Shown piece by piece: positions 4,270 through 35,297 of a stretch of DNA of 35,297 nt. The notes under the pieces were generated by a model. That model worked only from the letters and a program-made list of their open reading frames with translations, ran no database searches and was not told where the DNA came from. Positions within the stretch are counted from its first letter, which is position 1. Each line of letters opens with the position of its first letter. Location: positions 1-35,297 of the forward strand of contig JAFGSN010000022.1 of NCBI GenBank assembly GCA_016934575.1, read 5' to 3'. A program made the translations under genes and the position numbers. This stretch comes from Vicinamibacteria bacterium (lineage in GTDB: Bacteria > Acidobacteriota > Vicinamibacteria > Fen-336).

Positions 4270-7200
4270 TCATTTTCGACCGACGGCCGCGGCGATCTCG
4301 CTCCATGCCGGTTTTGAAAAAGCTTCTCCGAGCGCTTCCTGGAACAGCCGCGGCCAGCGGCCCGCCTCGAGAGGCACGATGCGCATCGATCCGCGCTCCG
4401 ACTGGACCGCCGAGGCCGGCAGAGGGAAACGAGTGAGCATGTCGGCCGGCATGCCGCCCTTTCCCGCGACGCGCAAAGACTGAGACAGGACCATGCCGTT
4501 TGGCGCCTGACTCAAACGGATCGTCGAGCCTTCGAAAAGGAAACCGAAACCGTTGCCCTGGGCGTCGGTCACCGCGGCCAGATCGACGCGGCTTCGATTG
4601 CCCGAAAAGAAACGACCGAGGGTCTCGGTGTCCGGCATCAGGCAGATGTGGTGAATCCCGCGTTCGGCCGCCTCGCCCTGTCCGGGATAGGAGCAGTAAG
4701 GCCCGTCGCCGAGCCAGACGAGGTGGGTCAGGGAATGAGGCAGCAAGAATCCCAGCCCGAGATCGAGGAAGCTGTCCTGTGCGTCGATGGGGCGCAGCTC
4801 GTAGGACACGTCGAGCCATCCCCGGGGCAGCACCTCGCACACGACGTCGGCCTGCACGCGCTGGCCCTGTTGTTGCTCGTTCGAGCGGTGGAACTCGAGC
4901 ATGAGGCGGATTCGCCGTCCGCCGTCCCGCGTCTTTTCCGTCTCCTGGCTGCGCACGATCGCGCGTTCAATGAGCGGATTCTCCCAGTAGCGGAGGCCGG
5001 CCTTTCGGTACTGGAGAATCTCCGCCATTTCAGGCTCGCGGCCGGCGCGCAACAGGGGACCGGCGAACCAGAGATCCATCCGGCCCACTCGCACGGTCAG
5101 ATTTGATCGCGGATGAACCATGACCTCCAGATTGCCCACGCTGATTTCTTCCATATCGCCAGCGCGACGGCTTCTGACGGGCAGCGTTTCCGCCGTCGCC
5201 AAGCGAACGGCGAAATCCACGCGTTGCGACTCGGGCAGCAAGCGTATGGAATGTTCGTAGATCGGGCGTCCCGCGTTGTCGATGAACGAGAGAAGCAGGA
5301 GGTGATCGCGCCGATCCAGTTCGGCCGGCACGTCCACGCTCAGTCGTATCGTCCCTTGCTGTCTTGGGGGCAGCGCGACCGACAAGGGGGCCCGGCTATG
5401 CACGCGTCCTTCCTGGAGGATGCGCCACTCGCCGCGGATCTGATCGAGGTTCGTGAAGTCGTGGCGGTTCTGTATCGGTATCGACAGCGTTTGACGGCCC
5501 GAGCGGGTGGTGATCGACGACTCCGGAATCACGATGGGCGAGAAAACCTTGCGCGCGAGCCAGTAGTCGTCCTGGGGAATGCGATCGGCGTACACAAGGC
5601 CGTCGCTTCCCGCGGCGCCGCGGCTGTCGAGCGCATCGTTCATCGAAAGCAAGACGTCGACGCTGACGTCCGGCGAGGATTCGGCCAAGGCGAGACGGTC
5701 GTCGACGCTCAGGTGGATCGCTCGTCCGGCAAGATTGCGACGCAGGCCTCGATCCTGAAAATGCCAGATACAGCCGCCGGCGAGGCGATCGTGCTGTTGC
5801 ATCAGCTCCCAACGGCTGGCGAGACCCTCGAGCGCCGTTCCGAGCGCGCGATTGAACGCGGTCACGAGGATCGGGCGGGTGACGCGCGCATCCGCCGCCG
5901 CCTCGGCCAGGGTCCAGCGTTTTCGTCCGGGCGCCGGGAGCGCGTCGGGATCGTGCGGAGCGAGAATGTCGGCGCTCGCCGAGAGATTGGCGTCGTACGA
6001 ACCGTCCGACTTGCCCGCGCCGGGCAGGAGCCTGGGCCGGGTCGGGTCCAAGCTACGGATACGTTCCACGGTGGCGAGGACGATCGGCGTCGCCGGGCTT
6101 TCATCGCCAACGCCCCACGCGATGACCGAGGGATGGTCCTTGTCCCGCTCCACGATCGCTTCGGCGCGCGCCATGACGGCGTCCCTGAATCCTGGATCGC
6201 GCAAGAGATCGGCGCCTTTTCCAAAAGGCACGGCGTCGATCACATAGAGGCCGTGACGGTCGCACAGATCGAGGAAGACGGGATGCGGGGGCGCATGCGA
6301 GAAGCGAACCGCGTTGATGTTGCCTCTTTTCATCAGCTCGACGTCGCGGATGTAATGCTCTTCTCGCATGGCACGCCCGACGTCCGGATGGATGTCGTCG
6401 TAGTTCACCCCGCGGATCTTGATCGGGCGATGGTTGAGCCGGAGCACGCCGTTTTCCACCGAAACCCGCCGGATGCCGACGATCCGCCGAACGGAATGCG
6501 TCGTCGATCCCGCTAGATTCAGGGCGATGCGCCACTCATAGAGGTCGGGCGTCTCGGCGCTCCACAATTTGGGCGCGGCGACTTCGGCGTCGAGCGCGAC
6601 ACGCGCGTTGTCGTCGCGGATCAACGCGAACGATTGCGCGGCGCTGGCGACAGTCCCGCCGGCGGAATCGTGAAGAGTTCCGGAGATCTCGCCGCGAACG
6701 GCTCCCCGATCGGCTCCCCGGCGCACGAGGACGCTGAGTTGCACGCGCGCGCGCGCGCCGTCGGGCGTCACCTCGGTCGTCGTCGTCGCGTCCGCGATGC
6801 AGGGATCGGGCGCCGACAGCAGAAGCACGTCGCGGAAGATGCCCGAGAGCGCCCAGACATCGTGCGTGTCGAGCTCCAGACCGCGATATTGTCGATAAAC
6901 ACGCACGGCGAGAGTGTTTCGTCCGTCGTGCTGAAGGAAGCTCGTGACGTCGAACTCGCTCCGGCAACAGGGGATCTCGTGCGATCCCGCGCGCTGTCCG
7001 TTGAGCCAGAACTCGAAGCCCCAGGACACGCCCTCGAAGCGCAAGATGATCCGCCGGTTCGCCCATTGTCGCGGAACGGCAAAGCTGCGGCGATACAACC
7101 CGACGCCGACTCCGGGCCTGCCGAAATGAAGCTGTCCGAAACCCGCCAACTCCCAGTTGCCGGGCACGCGGATCTTGCTCCAGCTCGAATCGTCGTAATC

Positions 7201-7368
7201 CGGCAGAATGAAGTCCGCCTCGGTGATTCCGAACTTGAATTTCCATTCGCCGTTGAGCGAGACCGACCATTGCTCGTCCTGATCTTGTTGCGCGAAAGGC
7301 TGCGCGGGCGCGGCGATAGCGGACGCCGCCAGGATCAAGCCCATCCAGAAGAGCGCTCTGGCGATCAT
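4270..7368 (-). CDS. Secreted LacZ-like GH2 family protein, catalytically degenerate
   Basis: 1032 residues with a signal peptide (about 1-20). Domain order matches LacZ: sugar-binding jelly roll (about 30-185, SLNGEWKFKFG), Ig-like (190-305), TIM barrel (310-560, IRGVNYDDIHP, NAVRFSHAPPHP, HPSVIAWGVGDES), then an Ig-like and a beta-gal small-chain-like domain to the end (VWLGDGPYCSYPG). Aligned by eye with E. coli LacZ, the acid/base Glu is kept (Glu423) but the preceding Asn is Asp422. The nucleophile Glu537 becomes Ala504 in a gap-free segment (RPILVTAFNRALG against RPLILCEYAHAMG). Mg ligands Glu416 and His418 become Gly383 and Gly385. Hydrolysis by the usual retaining mechanism is unlikely, so this may be a binding protein or a diverged enzyme. 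AGGAGG precedes ATG 7368. Confidence 0.88.
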   Translation of the reverse strand: MIARALFWMGLILAASAIAAPAQPFAQQDQDEQWSVSLNGEWKFKFGITEADFILPDYDDSSWSKIRVPGNWELAGFGQLHFGRPGVGVGLYRRSFAVPRQWANRRIILRFEGVSWGFEFWLNGQRAGSHEIPCCRSEFDVTSFLQHDGRNTLAVRVYRQYRGLELDTHDVWALSGIFRDVLLLSAPDPCIADATTTTEVTPDGARARVQLSVLVRRGADRGAVRGEISGTLHDSAGGTVASAAQSFALIRDDNARVALDAEVAAPKLWSAETPDLYEWRIALNLAGSTTHSVRRIVGIRRVSVENGVLRLNHRPIKIRGVNYDDIHPDVGRAMREEHYIRDVELMKRGNINAVRFSHAPPHPVFLDLCDRHGLYVIDAVPFGKGADLLRDPGFRDAVMARAEAIVERDKDHPSVIAWGVGDESPATPIVLATVERIRSLDPTRPRLLPGAGKSDGSYDANLSASADILAPHDPDALPAPGRKRWTLAEAAADARVTRPILVTAFNRALGTALEGLASRWELMQQHDRLAGGCIWHFQDRGLRRNLAGRAIHLSVDDRLALAESSPDVSVDVLLSMNDALDSRGAAGSDGLVYADRIPQDDYWLARKVFSPIVIPESSITTRSGRQTLSIPIQNRHDFTNLDQIRGEWRILQEGRVHSRAPLSVALPPRQQGTIRLSVDVPAELDRRDHLLLLSFIDNAGRPIYEHSIRLLPESQRVDFAVRLATAETLPVRSRRAGDMEEISVGNLEVMVHPRSNLTVRVGRMDLWFAGPLLRAGREPEMAEILQYRKAGLRYWENPLIERAIVRSQETEKTRDGGRRIRLMLEFHRSNEQQQGQRVQADVVCEVLPRGWLDVSYELRPIDAQDSFLDLGLGFLLPHSLTHLVWLGDGPYCSYPGQGEAAERGIHHICLMPDTETLGRFFSGNRSRVDLAAVTDAQGNGFGFLFEGSTIRLSQAPNGMVLSQSLRVAGKGGMPADMLTRFPLPASAVQSERGSMRIVPLEAGRWPRLFQEALGEAFSKPAWSEIAAAVGRK

Positions 7369-12051: not shown

Positions 12052-13593
12052 ATGGATCAAAAGACGAAGGGATTCTTATCGAATAAAACATCGAAGGGCG
12101 GCGCTCTCGACTCGTTCCGGCGGATGGTCGCGATCGGCGGCGCGTTTTCCGTTCTCACCGTCCTCGGATGCTCGCGCCGGCCGTCTCCTCCGAACCTCGT
12201 GCTCGTCGTCGTGGATTCGCTCCGCGCCGACGCCCTGGGTTGTTATGGAGCCGAACGCAGCGCGTCCCCGAACATCGATCGTATCGCGGCCGAGGGTCTG
12301 CGCTACGAACGTGTCGTGGCCCAGGCGCCGTGGAACGTTCCCTCGATCTCTTCGCTCATCACGTCTTCATATCCGCACGAGCACGGGCAGGGCGTGAGCG
12401 CGGGCGCGGCCGCGGACGTCACGACCCTGGCCGAGGCGCTGGCCAAGCGCGGCTATACGACCGCGGCCTTCATCGAGGCGAAGAGCTGGCCCCTGCTTGA
12501 ACGAGGTTTCGGCAGGATCGAGAAGACCGCGTCCCCGAGTCTTCTGGGCGATCCGCAGAACAACCTTGCCGTTCGGACCGTCGAAGCGGCCCAGTCCTGG
12601 ATCCCGGAGCCGGGTCAGGGGCCTTTCTTCGTCTTGATCCATACGTATGAGACATACAGTTACTTCATGGGAAAACCGGCGCATCGCGCCTTCGCCAAGC
12701 GCGAGCGTCCTGAATACTCGGGGCGCTTCTTCGATTGGGGGATTCGTGACGAAGACGCCGCGTTCGGACCGCGAGTCATCGAGGCGTTGCTCGACGCCAG
12801 CGCCGAGGACGCTGCCTTCGTCAAGAGCGTCTATCGCGGCGCGATTTCCGAGACGGACGCCGCCGTCGGCCGACTGGACGCCTTTCTCAAGAAGAAGAAG
12901 CTCGACGGCGACACCGTTCTCGTCGTCACTTCGAGCCACGGCGAGGGCTTTCGACCGGACCTGAAGCGCGTCCATCACGGCGGACGGCTGCATGACGATC
13001 TTCTGCGCGTGCCGCTTGTCATTCGCTGGCCGGGACGCATCGAGCCGCGCGTCGAGCGATCGATCGTCGCCGCGATCGACGTCGCGCCGACCCTGCTGGC
13101 GCTGGCCGGCGGCGATCAAGAGGGATTTCGTGGACGCGCTCTCTTGACTCTGCCTGAGAGCGCCTGGCCTTTCTTCGGCAAAAGACGTTTCAAGGCCGTC
13201 GACCAGCCGTCCCGCTCCATCATGACGGAGGAGTCCGCCATGCGCGTGCTGCCTTCGGGAGAACGCGAGAGCGCCAGCGTCCGGCAGATCGCCGTCTACT
13301 CCGAGGGCGTCAAGCTCATCGATAACGGAGAAACCGTCGAGCTTTACGATCTGAAGATCGATCCCTCCGAGGAAAGGAACGTTGCGGCCGATCACCAAGA
13401 CGCCGTCGCCGCGTTGTGCTCTCAGATCGAGTCCTTTCGCCAGGATTCGGTTCGAACGCCGAGCACGTCCGACGAGCGCGTCGTCGACATGCTCGAGTCC
13501 CTCGGCTATTTGAGCAAGGATCCGCAGGCGCCCGCGGCCGCGAGCGAAGCGGGCGCGCCTTCTGGTTGTGAGCGCGCCCTGACGAAACGATAA
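12052..13593 (+). CDS. Sulfatase-fold lipoprotein lacking the formylglycine residue
   Basis: 513 residues of the alkaline phosphatase/arylsulfatase superfamily. A hydrophobic segment ends in a lipobox (VLGC, Cys40), so an outer- or inner-membrane lipoprotein is likely, although the preceding N-region is long (about 24 residues). The first metal motif VVVDSLRADALGCYG is intact. The catalytic Cys/Ser/Thr of the usual C/S/T-x-P-S is Asn95 in APWNVPSISS, and the Asp of the later D-H-G motif is Ser295 in VTSSHGEGF; His296 remains. Without formylglycine, a normal sulfatase reaction is not expected. It may be a pseudoenzyme, or a phosphotransferase relative with other chemistry. AGGAGGT is 11 bases before ATG 12052. 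Confidence 0.85.
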   Translation: MDQKTKGFLSNKTSKGGALDSFRRMVAIGGAFSVLTVLGCSRRPSPPNLVLVVVDSLRADALGCYGAERSASPNIDRIAAEGLRYERVVAQAPWNVPSISSLITSSYPHEHGQGVSAGAAADVTTLAEALAKRGYTTAAFIEAKSWPLLERGFGRIEKTASPSLLGDPQNNLAVRTVEAAQSWIPEPGQGPFFVLIHTYETYSYFMGKPAHRAFAKRERPEYSGRFFDWGIRDEDAAFGPRVIEALLDASAEDAAFVKSVYRGAISETDAAVGRLDAFLKKKKLDGDTVLVVTSSHGEGFRPDLKRVHHGGRLHDDLLRVPLVIRWPGRIEPRVERSIVAAIDVAPTLLALAGGDQEGFRGRALLTLPESAWPFFGKRRFKAVDQPSRSIMTEESAMRVLPSGERESASVRQIAVYSEGVKLIDNGETVELYDLKIDPSEERNVAADHQDAVAALCSQIESFRQDSVRTPSTSDERVVDMLESLGYLSKDPQAPAAASEAGAPSGCERALTKR

Positions 13594-18699: not shown

Positions 18700-18703
18700 A
18701 TGA
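18527..18703 (+). CDS. Doubtful 58-residue ORF overlapping the glycosyltransferase start
   Basis: It runs from ATG 18527 to a TGA that overlaps the next ATG (ATGA at 18700-18703), the same junction used further down this operon. It has no ribosome-binding site, uses AGA and ATA codons that the neighbours avoid, and resembles no family I recognise. It could be a real leader peptide, a decayed gene end or chance. Confidence 0.2.
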   Translation: MTGSMWRGYCSAETLWHGYEMIMGDGRDARSIGIPAGDMLARRPHEALHVHDRVVSIL

Positions 18704-19932
18704 TTGACGCCAGGGTTCAAGAGATCCTGCTTTTCTACCACGATGCCGGCGGCGGGCATCGCAACGCGACTCGCGCTCTGACGGCCGCCGCGGATAAGAC
18801 GAAACGGCCCTGGCGCTTCCGCGTCGTGAATATCGAGCGTGAGCTTTCGTCCCTGGACTGGCTGCGCCTCCTGAGCGGCGTGACTATCGAAGATTTTTAC
18901 AATCTCATTGTGCGACGCCAGTTGGACGGCGCGTTTGTCGTCATTCTGCTGCGTCTCATGCACGCCGTGATTCGATTGCAGCGGCGGCGGATTCTACGAA
19001 CGCTCGTGGATTTCCTGCGCGCGCAGTCTACTGCGCCGGCCGCCGTTGTCTCCGTCATACACAGCTTCAACGGAATTCTTCGCGAGGCCTGCCGCGAGGC
19101 GTTGCCCGGCGTGCCGTTCATCGTCGTCATGACCGATCTCGCCGACTTCCCGCCGCGATTCTGGATCGAGCCGGGACTGGAGCGCGTCATCGTCGGCTCG
19201 GACGAGGCCGTCGAGCAAGCGCTCGCCGCCGGCCTGTCCCCTCGCGCCGTCACGCGAGTCTCGGGAATGATCCTGCACCCGCGATATTATGAGACGTCCG
19301 CCGTCGAACGCCGCGCATTCCTGCGCCGGGAGCATGGATGGGGCGATCGGGACGAGGTGATTCTGCTGCTTTTCGGCGGCAAGGGCGCTCGGGAGATGCT
19401 GCCTCTGGCCCGTGGGCTGCTCGCCGAGTCGCCGCGCTGGCATGTCACGGCGATTTGCGGCGACAATCCGCCGCTCGTCGAGGCTTTGTCTCGGCTCGCG
19501 ACGGATCATGCGCCGCGTCTGACCGTGCTCGGTTTCACGGATCGCGTGGCCGATTACATGGCGGCGTCCGACCTGCTGGTGACCAAGCCCGGCCCCGGAT
19601 CGCTTTCCGAGGCGTGGCACCAGCGGCTGCCGGTCATCGTGGCCGACAATCGGAAAACCCTTCCACAAGAGCGCTTCAACGCTCGTTTTCTCGAGCGGCG
19701 CGGGCTTGGCTTCACTGTTCGCAAGTGGCGCGACGTTCCCCGGATCGCGACCGAATACTTCGCCGATTCGACTCGGCGGGAGAGGATCAGAGACAACCTG
19801 GCGCGTTTGCCTCGGAACCTCGCCGTCTTCGAGATCCTCGATGTGATCGAGAGGGATCTTCAGGCGCCGGGCTCGTCGGCCGGCTGTCGCGAAGAAGCAA
19901 CGCCAATGGCGGATGTTGCTGTAAAATCATGA
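18700..19932 (+). CDS. MGDG-synthase-like glycosyltransferase (GT28 family)
   Basis: 410 residues. The N-terminal domain carries the glycolipid synthase signature YHDAGGGHRNATRAL (residues 13-27), as in monogalactosyldiacylglycerol synthases and processive diacylglycerol glucosyltransferases. The C-terminal GT28/GT-B donor domain contains LLFGGKGAREM and VTKPGPGSLSEAW, the nucleotide-sugar-binding loop. The predicted reaction is transfer of Glc or Gal from a UDP-sugar to a lipid at the inner face of the membrane; the acceptor is unproven. No ribosome-binding site is evident at ATG 18700. The stop overlaps the next ORF as ATGA. Confidence 0.88.
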   Translation: MIDARVQEILLFYHDAGGGHRNATRALTAAADKTKRPWRFRVVNIERELSSLDWLRLLSGVTIEDFYNLIVRRQLDGAFVVILLRLMHAVIRLQRRRILRTLVDFLRAQSTAPAAVVSVIHSFNGILREACREALPGVPFIVVMTDLADFPPRFWIEPGLERVIVGSDEAVEQALAAGLSPRAVTRVSGMILHPRYYETSAVERRAFLRREHGWGDRDEVILLLFGGKGAREMLPLARGLLAESPRWHVTAICGDNPPLVEALSRLATDHAPRLTVLGFTDRVADYMAASDLLVTKPGPGSLSEAWHQRLPVIVADNRKTLPQERFNARFLERRGLGFTVRKWRDVPRIATEYFADSTRRERIRDNLARLPRNLAVFEILDVIERDLQAPGSSAGCREEATPMADVAVKS

Positions 19933-20093
19933 GTATTGAGGGATGGGGCCCTTTCCCCACTTCGTCTCGGAATGAGACAACGTTCGCTCGCCCAAAACGG
20001 TTTCTCGGCGTGATGCTCCCTGACGAAGTCCACGGCATGAACAAGAGTCGCGCGATTCTCGTGGAGCGACGACGCCGCGAAAATCGCGAATGA
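19929..20093 (+). CDS. Small ORF (54 residues) bridging glycosyltransferase and phosphatase genes
   Basis: ATG 19929 overlaps the glycosyltransferase stop (ATGA), and the TGA at 20091-20093 overlaps the phosphatase ATG at 20090 (ATGA), so the frame fits exactly between its neighbours. The product starts MSIEGWGPFPTSS, is hydrophilic and becomes basic at the end (VERRRRENRE). It has no signal peptide, membrane segment or recognised domain. The double overlap is the only positive evidence. It may be a real small protein or a translated linker that delivers ribosomes to the phosphatase. Confidence 0.4.
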   Translation: MSIEGWGPFPTSSRNETTFARPKRFLGVMLPDEVHGMNKSRAILVERRRRENRE

Positions 20094-21364
20094 TCGACGA
20101 TCGAGGAAAAACGCTCGTGAATGAAAACGCTCCGCCAAGACCCGAACCGAAGCTTCTCTATCGCCGGCTTGATCGGCTTTTCGGCGCGTGGAAGTACGGA
20201 CGCCCGCAGAGGGAGCTGCTGGAATCGTTTCTGGACGACTTGTTCGCCACGCTCGGCGAGCCGTTGCGCCTGCGTAGCTGCGTTCTCTACGGCGAGCGTC
20301 GCAGCGAGTTCGCGTTGCTCAAGTCCATCTCCACGTCGCGGGCGCCGGCTGAAGGACTGCCCCTGGACGCGCCGCCGATTTCCCTGCTCGCCAAGCATCG
20401 CGTTTACATCTTCAGCGATCCCGAGGCGGAGTCCGCGCCGAGCCGCTACGGCGTCCTGGCTCACGGCGCATCGGCCGGCATTCTCGTCGGCCGTCGCCCC
20501 TCGCGGTACGCCTTCTTCTTCCGCCTCGACGACGGCTGGATGCGGGAGGAGCTGGATTTCGCCCTGAACACCATTCGCGCCGCTCTCGGCTCGCGCATCA
20601 CGGAGGAACGCATGCGCGGCACCTTCGCCGAGGCGGCGGAGATCCAGCAGAGCTTGCTGCTTGAAGACGCTCCGGATTTCCCCGGGTATGAGTTCGCCTG
20701 TCGCTCCGTGCCCGCCGAAGAGGTCGGCGGCGATTTCTACGATTTCATCCCCTTCAACGGCGACGTTCTCGCGGTCGCCGTCGGCGACGCATCGGGCCAC
20801 GGGTTGCCCGCGGCGCTGCTCGTGCGCGACGTCGTCACCGGGCTGAGAATGGGCATCGCCAAGGACATGAAGATCACGCCGGTGTTCGAGAAGCTCAACG
20901 ACGTCATCCACCGCAGCAACCTGTCGAGCCGGTTCGTGTCGGTTTTCTACGGCGAACTGGAGTCGAACGGCAATCTGATCTATGTCAACGCCGGCCACCT
21001 GGCGCCCTGGCTGTTTCTCAAGGATCGAGTCGAGTCCCTGACGACGGGCGGAACGGTCATCGGCCCGCTGCCGGAGGCCCGCTTCAAACGCGGCTTCGCT
21101 CACATCGATCGCGGCTCGACGCTGGTGCTCACGACCGACGGGTTGATGGAGCGGCGCAACTCGGCCGGCGAGTTTTTCAGCGAGGAGCGGCTCCAGAAGC
21201 TCTTTGAGGACAATCTCCATCTCCCGCCCGAGGATCTCGTGGAACGTGCTTTCCGCGAGGTGGTGGACTTCGGCGGCGGCGGTCCCTTCGAGGACGATGC
21301 CACGCTCGTCATCGTGCGACGGCATGAAGGCCCCGCGCAGAAGAGCGCTCCGCCCTCGCTCTGA
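20090..21364 (+). CDS. SpoIIE/RsbU-type PP2C serine phosphatase with N-terminal sensory region
   Basis: 424 residues. Residues about 45-165 look like a GAF-like or other sensory fold without recognisable ligand residues, followed by a helical linker (EERMRGTFAEAAEIQQSLL). The SpoIIE phosphatase domain (about 190-414) has its metal-binding acids in EEVGGDFYDF (Asp215), VGDASGHGLPAALL (Asp233), TDGLMERRN and FEDDATLVIV, plus YVNAGHLAPWL. Such enzymes dephosphorylate anti-sigma-factor antagonists, but no STAS or HPK anti-sigma gene is nearby. ATG 20090 overlaps the small ORF. GTG 20117, preceded by GAGG, is an alternative. The stop overlaps the GH2 ATG (TGATG). Confidence 0.9.
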   Translation: MIDDRGKTLVNENAPPRPEPKLLYRRLDRLFGAWKYGRPQRELLESFLDDLFATLGEPLRLRSCVLYGERRSEFALLKSISTSRAPAEGLPLDAPPISLLAKHRVYIFSDPEAESAPSRYGVLAHGASAGILVGRRPSRYAFFFRLDDGWMREELDFALNTIRAALGSRITEERMRGTFAEAAEIQQSLLLEDAPDFPGYEFACRSVPAEEVGGDFYDFIPFNGDVLAVAVGDASGHGLPAALLVRDVVTGLRMGIAKDMKITPVFEKLNDVIHRSNLSSRFVSVFYGELESNGNLIYVNAGHLAPWLFLKDRVESLTTGGTVIGPLPEARFKRGFAHIDRGSTLVLTTDGLMERRNSAGEFFSEERLQKLFEDNLHLPPEDLVERAFREVVDFGGGGPFEDDATLVIVRRHEGPAQKSAPPSL

Positions 21365-23901
21365 TGCGTTTCAAGGCCAGGCATATCGTTCGATGTCGCT
21401 TGCGCGTCACGGCCGTCGGCCTGTTGATCATGTCGATTGTCTTCGTTTCGACGTTCACGGCGTGCCGGCGCCGTGTTTCGCGGCAATCGTCGCCGCGCCA
21501 GATCACGCCGCTCTCGCCGGCTTGGCGTTTCCTCCCGGGCGACGACCTCGAGGACGGCGCGCGCGTCGACCTTGACGACGGCGAGTGGCGGAAGGTCGAA
21601 ATTCCGCATACCTGGTCGATCCCGCGCCCGACGACGTTCCGGCGCGCGTGGTATCGAACCCGCATGCACGTCCCCAAGGAACGCGCGCGCGGCCGGCTCT
21701 TTCTGGCCTTCGACGGCGTGTCGGCGATCGCGGACGTCTATGCCAACGGCGTCCGCCTTGGAAGCCATCATGGCGCCTACACTCGTTTCGTGCTTGACGC
21801 CACTCGCGCCCTGGCGCCCGGCGAGGAGAACGTCATCGCCGTGCGCGTCAGCAACGACCCCGAAGAGACGGCGGACTGTCTGCCCTCCGGCACGGGCGGC
21901 GGTCAGCACTACCATGTCTTCGGCGGCATTCATCGCCCTGCCTGGCTGCTCACGACCGCGGAATGCCATATCGATCCCGCCGATCACGGCGCGCCCGGCG
22001 TCGCGGTGATCCCCCGTCGTGTGGACGGCGAAGCCGCCGAGTTCGACGTTCGCGTTCGTCTCGCCAACCATGCGCGTGTCGCGCGGCGGCTTGACCTGCG
22101 ATTGTCGCTCGACGGCCCGGGCCAAGCGCGGTCGTGGAGCGCGAGTCGCGCGCTCGACCTTGCGGCGAACGGCAGGGCGGAAGTCGTCGTGCGGGGCGAT
22201 ATCCGCGCACCGAGACTCTGGGGACCCGGTCATCCGGCGCTCTATCTGTTGCGAGCCGATCTCTCGAGCGACGGGCGTCTTCTGGACTCGGTCGAAATTC
22301 GCACCGGGTTCCGCGACTTCCGCCACGCCGACGGTCGCTTCTTTCTGAACGGAGCGCCGGTTCTCATCCGCGGCGTCGGCAAGCACGAAGAATCGGAAAG
22401 ACGCGCGAGCGCCGTCACCGGCGCCGAGATCCGCGGGGATTTCGAGGAGCTGGCGTTTCTGGGAGTCAACATGGTTCGTCTCGCGCACTATCCCCACTCC
22501 CAACTGGCTTATGACCTGGCGGACGAGATGGGCATTCTGGTCTGGGCCGAGAACGGCAATTCGACCGACGCCAAGGCGGGAGCGACGGGGGAACGCATCA
22601 CGCGCGAGATGGTGCGCCAGAACGTCAATCACCCCAGCATCGTCGTTTGGTCGGTGGGCAACGAGACGGAATATCGAGGCGTCGATCGATACGCCGCCGT
22701 GGTCAAGGCCGAGGATCCTTCGCGCCCCGTCGCTTATGCCACCAACACTCACGCCCGGCCGCGCAAGCGCGATCTCAGCTTCATCACGCACAACATCTAT
22801 CGCGGCTGGTATCGCGGCGATCCCTGGGACTGGGAGCCGCTCGCGCGCGCGGCGCGGCTGGTTTCCGAGTGCGGCGCGGGATCGGTGATCAGCAACCATG
22901 CCGATTACGGTCGCGCCCATCGAGTGGTGGACTCTTTCGAGCCGGAGGAGTATCGCCAGCTCGTGGCCGAGGCCCAGTGCGCGATCGTGTTCGGACCGGA
23001 GCGCGACCGTTTTCCTTTCTATCTCGTGTGGGTGCTGCGCGACTTCGCCATCGATAAATACAAGGGCGTTCTCAATACCAAGGGGTTACTGACGCGCGCG
23101 GGTTTTCGCAAGGACGCTTACCATCTCTACCGGTCGTTTCTGCGACCCGAGCAACCGGTCGTGCACGTCACGAGCAAGACATACTTCTTGCGCCGCGGCC
23201 GCGCCGACAACGGGATCAAGGTCTATTCCAACCGGGAGAGCTTGCGCCTCGTTCTCAACGACCGCGATGCCGGGACGCGGGTGAACGGCGCGTATCGCCA
23301 TGCGAACGGACGCGTCGTTCCCAACGTCTTTTTTTGGAATGATTCGTTGCGGCCGGGGCGCAATGACATCCGCGTCACGGACGGGGCCGGCAACGAAGAC
23401 GCGGCCGTCGTTTATTTCCAGCCGTCGGATGCAGCCTGGGCGGCGGATCCGGGCGAGCCGATCCGCGATCTGCGGTCGTCGAACGCCGGCAATCGCGCCT
23501 GCTTCATCGACCTGCCGGTTCGGGATGAATGGCCGTTTTATTACGAGTTTGACGGTTCGGCCGACAATACATTCGCCACGTTGCCTTCGGAATTGCGCGG
23601 CGCCGGCTGGATCGGCACGCGCCGGCTTAGCAAACCCGAAATGCGCACGCGACTTGACTTCACGATCGACGACGCGGGCGCCGAGGTTTATATCGTTCAT
23701 GCGCGCGGCGGCCCGATCCCCTCCGTCTGGATCAAGGCCGGGTTCGTCGAAACGCCGACGCGAGGGACATGGCGCGGCGACGATCTTCAGCTCGCGCCGT
23801 TCGGCGTGATGCGCAAGCGCTGCGTCGCGGGCGAGCGGGTCGTGATACCGGCCGTTTCACTCGATTACGTCGTGCTCGTCAAGCGACGCGACCGAAGCTG
23901 A
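21364..23901 (+). CDS. Lipoprotein GH2 family glycoside hydrolase, catalytic residues intact
   Basis: 845 residues. A basic N-terminus and hydrophobic stretch end in FTAC (Cys34), a plausible lipobox. The order is sugar-binding domain (about 50-200), Ig-like domain (205-315), TIM barrel (320-590) with acid/base Glu434 after Asn433 in VVWSVGNETEY, and nucleophile Glu502 in LVSECGAGS. The Trp/Tyr-rich NIYRGWYRGDPWDW is typical of GH2 beta-galactosidase/glucuronidase relatives. Residues 600-845 form beta domains. The specific glycoside cannot be read. It is the last gene of the overlapped chain and ends two bases before the convergent atpF stop. It contrasts with the degenerate relative at 4270-7368. 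Confidence 0.9.
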   Translation: MRFKARHIVRCRLRVTAVGLLIMSIVFVSTFTACRRRVSRQSSPRQITPLSPAWRFLPGDDLEDGARVDLDDGEWRKVEIPHTWSIPRPTTFRRAWYRTRMHVPKERARGRLFLAFDGVSAIADVYANGVRLGSHHGAYTRFVLDATRALAPGEENVIAVRVSNDPEETADCLPSGTGGGQHYHVFGGIHRPAWLLTTAECHIDPADHGAPGVAVIPRRVDGEAAEFDVRVRLANHARVARRLDLRLSLDGPGQARSWSASRALDLAANGRAEVVVRGDIRAPRLWGPGHPALYLLRADLSSDGRLLDSVEIRTGFRDFRHADGRFFLNGAPVLIRGVGKHEESERRASAVTGAEIRGDFEELAFLGVNMVRLAHYPHSQLAYDLADEMGILVWAENGNSTDAKAGATGERITREMVRQNVNHPSIVVWSVGNETEYRGVDRYAAVVKAEDPSRPVAYATNTHARPRKRDLSFITHNIYRGWYRGDPWDWEPLARAARLVSECGAGSVISNHADYGRAHRVVDSFEPEEYRQLVAEAQCAIVFGPERDRFPFYLVWVLRDFAIDKYKGVLNTKGLLTRAGFRKDAYHLYRSFLRPEQPVVHVTSKTYFLRRGRADNGIKVYSNRESLRLVLNDRDAGTRVNGAYRHANGRVVPNVFFWNDSLRPGRNDIRVTDGAGNEDAAVVYFQPSDAAWAADPGEPIRDLRSSNAGNRACFIDLPVRDEWPFYYEFDGSADNTFATLPSELRGAGWIGTRRLSKPEMRTRLDFTIDDAGAEVYIVHARGGPIPSVWIKAGFVETPTRGTWRGDDLQLAPFGVMRKRCVAGERVVIPAVSLDYVVLVKRRDRS

Positions 23902-33805: not shown

Positions 33806-35297
33806 GTGGAGCGCAACGAGGGGAAGGCGTCGAGACGCGAGTTTCTGGGCGCCCTCGGCGCCGCCGCCGCGCTGCCCTTGGCCGAGGCCGAACACACGGA
33901 CGCCGAGCATGTCGAGTCGAGCGAGAGCGCGAAGCCGCGCAACATCGTCTTGATCGTGAGCGACGACCATCGCTTCGACTTCATGGGTTTTCTCGGCAAG
34001 CCCGGATTTCTCGAAACGCCCAACATGGATCGACTGGCGTGCGACGGCGCCCATCTGGAGAACGCCACGGTGACCACGGCGCTCTGCTCGCCCAGTCGCG
34101 CGTCGATTCTGACCGGCCTCTACTCCCACAGGCATGGCGTCGTGGACAACAACACAGCAGTGCCGGAAGGAGTCGTGTTCTTTCCCCAGTATCTTCAACA
34201 GGCCGGATACGAGACGGCCTTCATCGGCAAGTGGCACATAGGCGACGACAATGACGATCCCCGGCCTGGATTCGATCACTGGGTGAGTTTTCGCGGCCAG
34301 GGCGAGTACCACGATCCGTTGCTGAACGTGGACGGCGACCGCGTCAAGCGCAAGGGTTACGTCACCGACATCCTGACCGACCACGCCCTGGAGTGGCTCA
34401 AGAAAGATCGGAACAAACCCTTCTTTCTGTATCTCTCGCACAAGGCCGTGCACGCCATGTTCGAGCCGGCCGAGCGCCATCTGGGCCGGTATGACGGCGT
34501 CCCGCTCTCCTATCCGGCGACGATGGCCGATAGCGAGGAGAACTACCGCGGAAAACCCGACTGGGTGCGCGAGCAGCGCGATAGCTGGCACGGCGTGGAT
34601 TTCATGTACCACGACGCGCTCGACTTCGATTCCTTCTACCGGCGCTATTGCGAGACGCTGCTGGCGCTCGACGAAAGCATCGGCCGCGTGCTCGACGGCC
34701 TCGGCGAGCTGGGACTTGACTGTTCCACGCTCGTCATCTACATGGGCGACAACGGCTTCTCGTTCGGCGAGCACGGGCTCATCGACAAGCGCCACATGTA
34801 TGAGGAGTCCATGCGCGTGCCGATGCTGGCCTGTTGCCCCGAGATCATCGCGCCGGGCGCCAAGATCAAGGCCATGGTTCAGAACATCGACGTCGCGCCC
34901 ACGATCCTCGATGCCGCCGGCCTGCGTCCGCCCGAGAGGATGGACGGCCGCTCCTTTCTGCCGCTTCTCATGGGCCGGAAGATTCGCTGGCGGGACGCCG
35001 TCTTCTACGAGTACTACTGGGAGCGTAATTTCCCGCAGACGCCGACGGTTTACGGCATCCGCACCGAACGCCACAAGTACATCCGCTACCATGGCGTCTG
35101 GGACGTAGACGAGCTCTACGACATCAAGGAGGATCCCGAGGAGCGTCGCAATCTGATCGACAGCCCGAAGCACAAGAAGCTCGTCGAGAAGCTCAATCGG
35201 CGCGTGTTCGACTGGCTGGAGCGGACGGACGGCATGAACATCCCGCTCCGGCGCGACAAGGGCGTCAGGCAGGACAAGCGCGGGAAGCCGTCTTGGA
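33806..35297 (+). CDS. Tat-exported sulfatase with intact formylglycine motif (3' end cut by window)
   Basis: The start is GTG 33806, with GAGGAGGAG ending six bases upstream. The first residues carry a twin-arginine signal ([18 protein letters not shown]). The sulfatase motif C-S-P-S-R (Cys94 in [15 protein letters not shown]) is the substrate for formylglycine conversion. Metal ligands are in VSDDHRFDF (Asp53, Asp54) and [13 protein letters not shown] (Asp315, Asn316); GKWHIG supplies the conserved Lys and His. It resembles family S1 enzymes such as iduronate-2-sulfatase and glucosamine sulfohydrolase relatives acting on sulfated glycans. 497 codons are open to the window edge without a stop; the C-terminal region is present, so little is probably missing. 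No maturase gene is in the window. Confidence 0.93.

Follow-up and report, generated by a model that had tools for sequence, protein, structure and literature searches.

How glycolipids take the place of phospholipids has been studied in depth in marine Proteobacteria and in plants. Acidobacteriota are abundant in soil, and soils are often phosphate-poor. Here we analyze a 35,297-nucleotide stretch of DNA (the window) from a Vicinamibacteria bacterium of the Acidobacteriota (assembly GCA_016934575.1, contig JAFGSN010000022.1), in which genes for a glycosyltransferase (GT), a SpoIIE/PP2C serine phosphatase, and a GH2 lipoprotein follow one another on the forward strand, with a claimed small open reading frame (ORF) between the first two. 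The original prediction took the four for a coupled chain that might act in the phosphatase-controlled synthesis and trimming of a glycolipid or surface glycan. The region is no four-gene system, and we consider it fairly probable that the GT, an MGD1-type, probable diacylglycerol glycosyltransferase, works with PAP2 phosphatase and PHP phosphoesterase partners in phosphate-saving lipid remodelling. The claimed system should be abandoned. The analysis leaves a testable glycolipid-making route in abundant soil Acidobacteriota, with hints of a phosphate response, and such a module would bear on studies of soil phosphorus and lipids.

In P. aeruginosa and marine bacteria, the phospholipase C PlcP and Agt glycosyltransferases exchange phospholipids for glycolipids under phosphate stress (PMC4796936, PMC8528852, PMC8231724). 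The PlcP–Agt systems (SAR11, Phaeobacter, and Pseudomonas aeruginosa) resemble the present module in combining a phosphatase or phospholipase step that would give diacylglycerol with a glycosyltransferase. A location near pho genes is also shared, and Pho-box-like 11-bp repeats occur in two relatives of the window genome (G002 and G008), although not before the window GT. The differences should be noted. The GT is of the GT28 MGD1-like type instead of the Agt type, PAP2 and PHP replace PlcP in most loci while a metallophosphoesterase lies near the GT in a minority, the host belongs to Acidobacteriota, and the parts of the module are on two contigs in the window genome. No PlcP gene lies beside the GT gene at the window locus. 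Because PlcP and the Agt type, two of the defining features, are both missing, we do not file the module as a PlcP–Agt member. It is possible, though less likely than not, that Acidobacteriota possess their own phosphate-controlled module (MGD1-type GT28, PAP2, and PHP under an 11-bp-repeat operator), independent of PlcP–Agt, and that in one family the GT is also influenced by the adjacent PP2C phosphatase. No literature on such a module in Acidobacteria was found in full texts or in titles and abstracts, which is weak evidence, as most subscription journals lie outside the coverage.

Identity of the glycosyltransferase

The GT gene (18700–19932, forward strand) encodes 410 amino acid residues. 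Hidden Markov model (HMM) searches bear out the families first proposed for the region, namely a GT28 C-terminal/MGDG-synthase type GT, SpoIIE/PP2C, and GH2; the GT matches PF04101 with an E-value of 1.1e-6. A profile of 36 relatives matches the structure of MGD1 (4wyi) over its full length (E 1.8e-45). The next match is a processive diacylglycerol glucosyltransferase (E 5.5e-34), and below an E-value of 0.01 there is no further solved structure. The AlphaFold model (pLDDT 90.5) has MGD1 as its top match in PDB (TM 0.84 by target length, E 7e-19), in agreement with a full-length GT-B fold shared with the Arabidopsis GT28 enzyme (4wyi/4x1t). The two enzymes also have in common the GGGHR motif with the catalytic His and the donor-site motifs KxGPGxxxEA and QExxN. 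His20 in the DAGGGHR segment is invariant in the 36 sequences, and its counterpart in MGD1, H155, is the catalytic base (PMC7419546). Unlike MGD1, the window GT is bacterial, shares 23% identity with it, and is encoded with PAP2 and PHP in relatives. By profile and predicted fold, the GT is thus a relative of MGD1, and the profile and fold matches together with the invariant His make a diacylglycerol glycosyltransferase the best assignment, so that the enzyme probably glycosylates diacylglycerol. The term glycolipid-type glycosyltransferase used in the original prediction is well supported by the kinship with MGD1 and by the PAP2 and PHP partners described below. The diglucosyl diacylglycerol synthase model PRK13609 was considered and rejected as a closer assignment; it belongs to the same superfamily (E 9.6e-26), but the score of 90.6 bits is far from the equivalog cut-off of 500.

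PAP2 and PHP partners

We compared 80 GT loci obtained by a scan of named genomes, nearly all from Acidobacteriota (Bryobacterales and relatives). A PAP2 phosphatase gene lies upstream of and divergent to the GT gene in 47 of these loci, with the same orientation in all 47. The distance is mostly less than 300 nt; it is about 1 kb in 13 loci, and in the cases listed among them a PHP phosphoesterase gene lies between the two. A PHP gene is found at the GT in 14 of the 80 loci. The window genome (G000) has PHP and PAP2 side by side, on a contig other than that of the window (G000:C92:18790-20274).

The association is also found across 297 genomes of the phylum, with thresholds of E<1e-55 for the PAP2 subfamily and E<1e-100 for the GT subfamily. 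The PAP2 subfamily occurs in five of these genomes (G000, G004, G008, G213, and G290), and each of the five is also one of the six genomes in which the full-length GT match is strong, even though G000 and G004 carry their GT and PAP2 genes on separate contigs. The strongest PHP matches are confined to the family of the window genome. Within this family, PHP and PAP2 go with the GT in G000, G001, G002, G004, and G008, while G014 has PHP and PAP2 with only a distant GT. By co-occurrence and position, PAP2 and PHP are functional partners of the GT. An arrangement of unrelated housekeeping genes by chance at all these loci would accommodate the GH2 gene and the small ORF, but it is contradicted by the co-occurrence of the PAP2 and GT subfamilies in five out of five cases and by the divergent orientation in 47 out of 47, and is very improbable.

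A metallophosphoesterase gene is located near the GT in L104, L134, L146, L158, L194, and L195; G119 (L194) and G157 are two genomes with such a gene near the GT and no member of the PAP2 subfamily. In G119, a protein of the diacylglycerol-kinase family and the metallophosphoesterase are encoded in a row with the GT (L194 5988-7732), and both might handle diacylglycerol in the absence of PAP2. In G012, a PHP gene with an internal deletion is fused in frame to a PAP2 sequence and adjoins the GT (L064 11093-11797), to be regarded as a decayed or mis-assembled pair. GTs of the acidobacterial type are also filed under Bordetella parapertussis, Nevskia, Variovorax, and Extensimonas (L089, L103, L134, and L152); these records are probably mislabelled or contaminated, or reflect transfer.

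Possible link to phosphate

The PHP–PAP2 pair of the window genome is accompanied by phoU (TIGR02135, above the cut-off) and a PhoR/WalK-like kinase gene, with a GT4 glycosyltransferase gene on the same side. Genes for a PHO4 transporter, a GT4, and a lipid N-methyltransferase-like protein are found near the pair in G014, where one of the PhoB-like regulators that accompany the pair in G000 also has an orthologue (67% identical).

The GT/PHP intergenic region of G002 contains, at G002:C67:11228-11254, the repeat CGTCATCGTGCCGTCATCAGGGCGTCA, whose three units are 11 bp apart and which can be compared with the Pho box CTGTCATNNNNCTGTCAT quoted in PMC8528852. This copy is the sole perfect YGTCA-N6 triple of the genome. 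The sole perfect triple of G008 (CGTCA-N6; G008:C1:376443-376469, L199 3944-3970) is located 28 nt before a PhoU_div–PHO4 phosphate transporter operon, and a triple with one mismatch precedes the GT in the same genome. Triples with one mismatch or fewer occur at 14 sites in five genomes, against one site for a reversed control pattern. The evidence for an operator comes mainly from G002 and G008, because the other one-mismatch sites (G012, G004, and others) are mostly not near clear phosphate genes. In the PAP2–GT gaps of Bryobacterales (L084-L155), a conserved motif, TACA-N5-6-GTGACA-N5-AAAAA, has a period of about 11 bp; it scores 573 compared with 279–308 in shuffles, which had fewer restarts, and shared descent may account for part of the score. 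From these sequence features, we infer that glycolipid synthesis by the GT module may be controlled by phosphate. A protein encoded downstream in L201 was considered as a phosphate porin and rejected, as it has no family match.

In the working that we propose, PAP2 (perhaps PHP) would strip phosphate from phosphatidate or another phospholipid under phosphate shortage to leave diacylglycerol, which the GT would turn into glycosyl diacylglycerol. The glycolipid would then take the place of phospholipid, and phosphate would be saved. No role in remodelling is assigned to the PP2C phosphatase, which is cytosolic and probably separately promoted and is kept beside the GT in several genera. The substrates, the products, and the induction by phosphate shortage in this scheme are those that we infer.

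Several observations weigh against phosphate-saving remodelling. The two regulators beside the G000 PHP–PAP2 pair have PhoB as their best model with scores below the curated cut-offs. A Pho-box-like repeat was not found before the GT of the window, only a weak one precedes the PHP gene of the window genome, and the one-mismatch scan of G000 gave a single match, by our reading in a ribosomal protein operon. In 33 of the 80 GT loci, there is no PAP2 gene in the upstream sequence covered, which was 4 kb or less. The long-lived adjacency of the GT and PP2C genes, described below, is left unexplained by the lipid-remodelling model. Finally, the sequences of PAP2 and PHP do not reveal their substrates, and PAP2 could be an undecaprenyl-pyrophosphate phosphatase; the G000 protein has weak NCBIfam matches to undecaprenyl-diphosphatases.

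The last point is related to another reading, in which the GT uses a different acceptor, such as a polyprenol-linked or ceramide-type lipid, and the module makes a precursor of a surface glycan and not a membrane glycolipid. The GT28 family includes MurG, and the GT matches TIGR01133 with an E-value of 9.6e-6. However, the profile search puts MGD1 and the processive diacylglycerol glucosyltransferase first with no MurG structure below 0.01, the fold comparison places MGD1 far above MurG, and the genes co-located with the module include phosphate genes, metallophosphoesterases, and a member of the diacylglycerol kinase family. We therefore regard another acceptor as rather improbable and a diacylglycerol acceptor as the preferred assignment.

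Gene neighborhoods in relatives

The four open frames and their ATGA, ATGA, and TGATG junctions are present in the window exactly as first described. In the genomes of the family and the 80 GT loci, the four genes stand side by side in no relative and only in the window genome. This neighborhood search, which the original prediction had itself named as its refuting test, speaks against a conserved four-gene system. What stands is the GT–PP2C pair. The two genes are adjacent in G001, G004, and G008, all from the same family as the window, and also in G012, where two contig ends share the same sequence (the end of the GT gene). Every genus of the family with both genes, five including that of the window, has the GT gene followed by the PP2C gene, while the outer neighbors vary. 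The pairing is limited, since a PP2C orthologue occurs without an adjacent GT in G003, G005, G009, G010, G011, G013, G014, and G016, and G002 has the GT without a PP2C orthologue. Among the 80 named loci, PP2C adjoins the GT in one, L083, which is the G008 contig itself; L081 represents the broken contig of G012. The GT–PP2C pair is a real but limited conserved neighborhood, which does not imply co-transcription. In G004, a 345-residue protein with no Pfam family is encoded on the same strand upstream of the GT with a 14-nt gap (L062 8543-9580).

The GH2 gene adjoins the GT in none of the 80 loci. Its orthologues in G002, G003, G009, and G010 (53–57% identical) are not close to PP2C or the GT; they lie near Rieske/cytochrome b genes in G002, G003, and G009, neighbors that G010 shares in part. 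The GH2 gene is thus downstream of PP2C in the window genome only and has its own locus elsewhere in relatives, and the trimming of a glycan or glycolipid by this enzyme is unsupported. The chain is neither a conserved unit nor one system, and we rejected a four-gene operon on the neighborhoods in relatives.

Small ORF, gene starts, and overlaps

The claimed 54-codon ORF (19929–20093, forward strand) is unsupported as a gene and forms part of the GT–PP2C spacer. Its coding score per codon is 0.013, compared with 0.23 for the GT, 0.33 for PP2C, and 0.23 for GH2; the training set of the score consisted of window genes, these three among them. The ORF lies at the end of an open frame of 251 codons (19338–20093) that crosses the GT gene in another phase; long open wrong frames are common at 64% G+C. 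No family match was obtained in HMM searches, and no peptide resembling the product is encoded in the 80 loci of GT relatives. The GT–PP2C spacing is only 19 nt in G004 and 14 nt in G008. On coding score, homology, and frame, we rejected a real peptide.

The phosphatase frame was first read as 20090–21364 (424 residues). The start is most likely GTG 20117 rather than ATG 20090, because the Shine-Dalgarno-like GAGGA (20103–20107, forward strand) lies 9 nt upstream, and because the residue at GTG 20117 aligns on the initiator Met of relatives in an alignment of 14 orthologues. With this start, two of the three overlaps vanish, and the gap between the GT and PP2C becomes 184 nt. The remaining PP2C–GH2 overlap of 1 nt is contingent on ATG 21364 as the GH2 start, which is uncertain; the in-frame TTG 21400 is possibly the alternative, giving a signal peptide as short as those of relatives.

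The overlaps had been taken as a sign of coupling for joint action or a fixed ratio. However, overlaps occur in six of the 14 other same-strand neighbor pairs of the window, several of which are functionally unrelated, such as arginyl-tRNA synthetase and peptidase C26. Being commonplace, they provide no evidence for joint function, and we rejected them as a sign of it. Canonical sigma-70 promoters and terminators in the four-gene region are no more frequent than chance expects. A single coupled operon in which the phosphatase controls how a surface glycan or glycolipid is made and trimmed would agree with the common strand and little spacing, the GT–PP2C adjacency in five genera, and the 1-nt overlap. 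It has nevertheless become extremely improbable and is already largely refuted by the neighborhood analysis, given that the small ORF is no gene, the PP2C start has moved, GH2 is elsewhere in all relatives, and PP2C has its own promoter in relatives.

PP2C phosphatase

The phosphatase gene with its revised start (20117–21364, forward strand) encodes a PF07228 domain (E 2.2e-40), in which the metal-binding Asp columns are invariant across 14 orthologues. Fold matches are SiaA-PP2C, the RsbU domain of Rv1364c, and SpoIIE. By our reading of the predicted secondary structure, the N-terminal half is a small GAF-like alpha/beta domain; it has no family match. The RsbU/SpoIIE-type phosphatases (Rv1364c RsbU domain, SiaA, and SpoIIE) likewise have a conserved-Asp PP2C domain and an N-terminal input domain, whereas the family of the window differs in its many PP2C paralogues, with as many as 18 matches in one genome. 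We saw no membrane segment in the phosphatase, and the protein is therefore not an envelope sensor. No viral relatives of it were found.

The promoter of the gene should also be noted. The sequence TGNTANNAT lies 8–13 nt before the phosphatase start in seven of 13 orthologues, compared with two of 228 other genes, and this extended −10 element is upstream of the PP2C ATG at L062, L063, and L066-L070. It looks like a promoter of PP2C itself that leaves hardly any leader, and it occurs whether or not the GT is there; PP2C transcripts are probably leaderless or near-leaderless in this acidobacterial family. The TGNTANNAT form was not found before the window phosphatase, where only a −10-like TAAAAT (19922–19927, forward strand) occurs at the 3' end of the GT gene as a possible phosphatase promoter, weak in the window genome.

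These observations bear on whether the phosphatase regulates the GT or its pathway, for example through an anti-sigma/anti-anti-sigma switch, with selection holding the pair together. The order of the GT upstream of PP2C in every genus with both genes, despite differing flanking genes, would fit such regulation. On the other side are the eight genomes with a PP2C orthologue and no adjacent GT, several with a promoter directly before the phosphatase, as well as the GT of G002 without an orthologue and nearly all other named loci without an adjacent PP2C. No STAS or RsbW-like partner gene was noticed in the neighborhoods read, although the genome itself was not searched for one, and PP2C has no coupling to the GT of the kind that PAP2 has. 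Phosphatase control of glycolipid synthesis, as originally proposed, is thus unlikely, and we keep to the GT with its PAP2 and PHP partners as the module.

GH2 lipoprotein and surrounding genes

The GH2 gene (21364–23901, forward strand; 845 residues) encodes a lipoprotein of the beta-galactosidase/beta-glucuronidase superfamily. It matches PF02836, PF02837, and PF00703, and BetGlucuronLacZ4 with an E-value of 1.1e-84. The sugar-binding, immunoglobulin-like, and TIM-barrel domains are present with both catalytic Glu residues. Solved GH2 beta-galactosidase/beta-glucuronidase structures (8dhe and 3fn9) likewise have the three GH2 domains, the NE acid/base, and the second catalytic Glu (SECGAGS). 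The window protein differs from these structures in its unassigned C-terminal part. It has a signal peptide with a lipobox; in the G003 and G010 orthologues, the lipobox Cys is followed by RR.

Upstream of the GT, a YgaP-like membrane protein and a CDF cation transporter are encoded on the opposite strand, and downstream of GH2 the F0 part of ATP synthase is also on the opposite strand. The window genome has seven GH2 matches, one more of which, beta-galactosidase-like, lies within the window at 4270–7368. Polysaccharide-degrading genes are plentiful in the window, and two sulfatases are encoded at 12124–13593 and 33806–35296, one with a lipobox-like signal.

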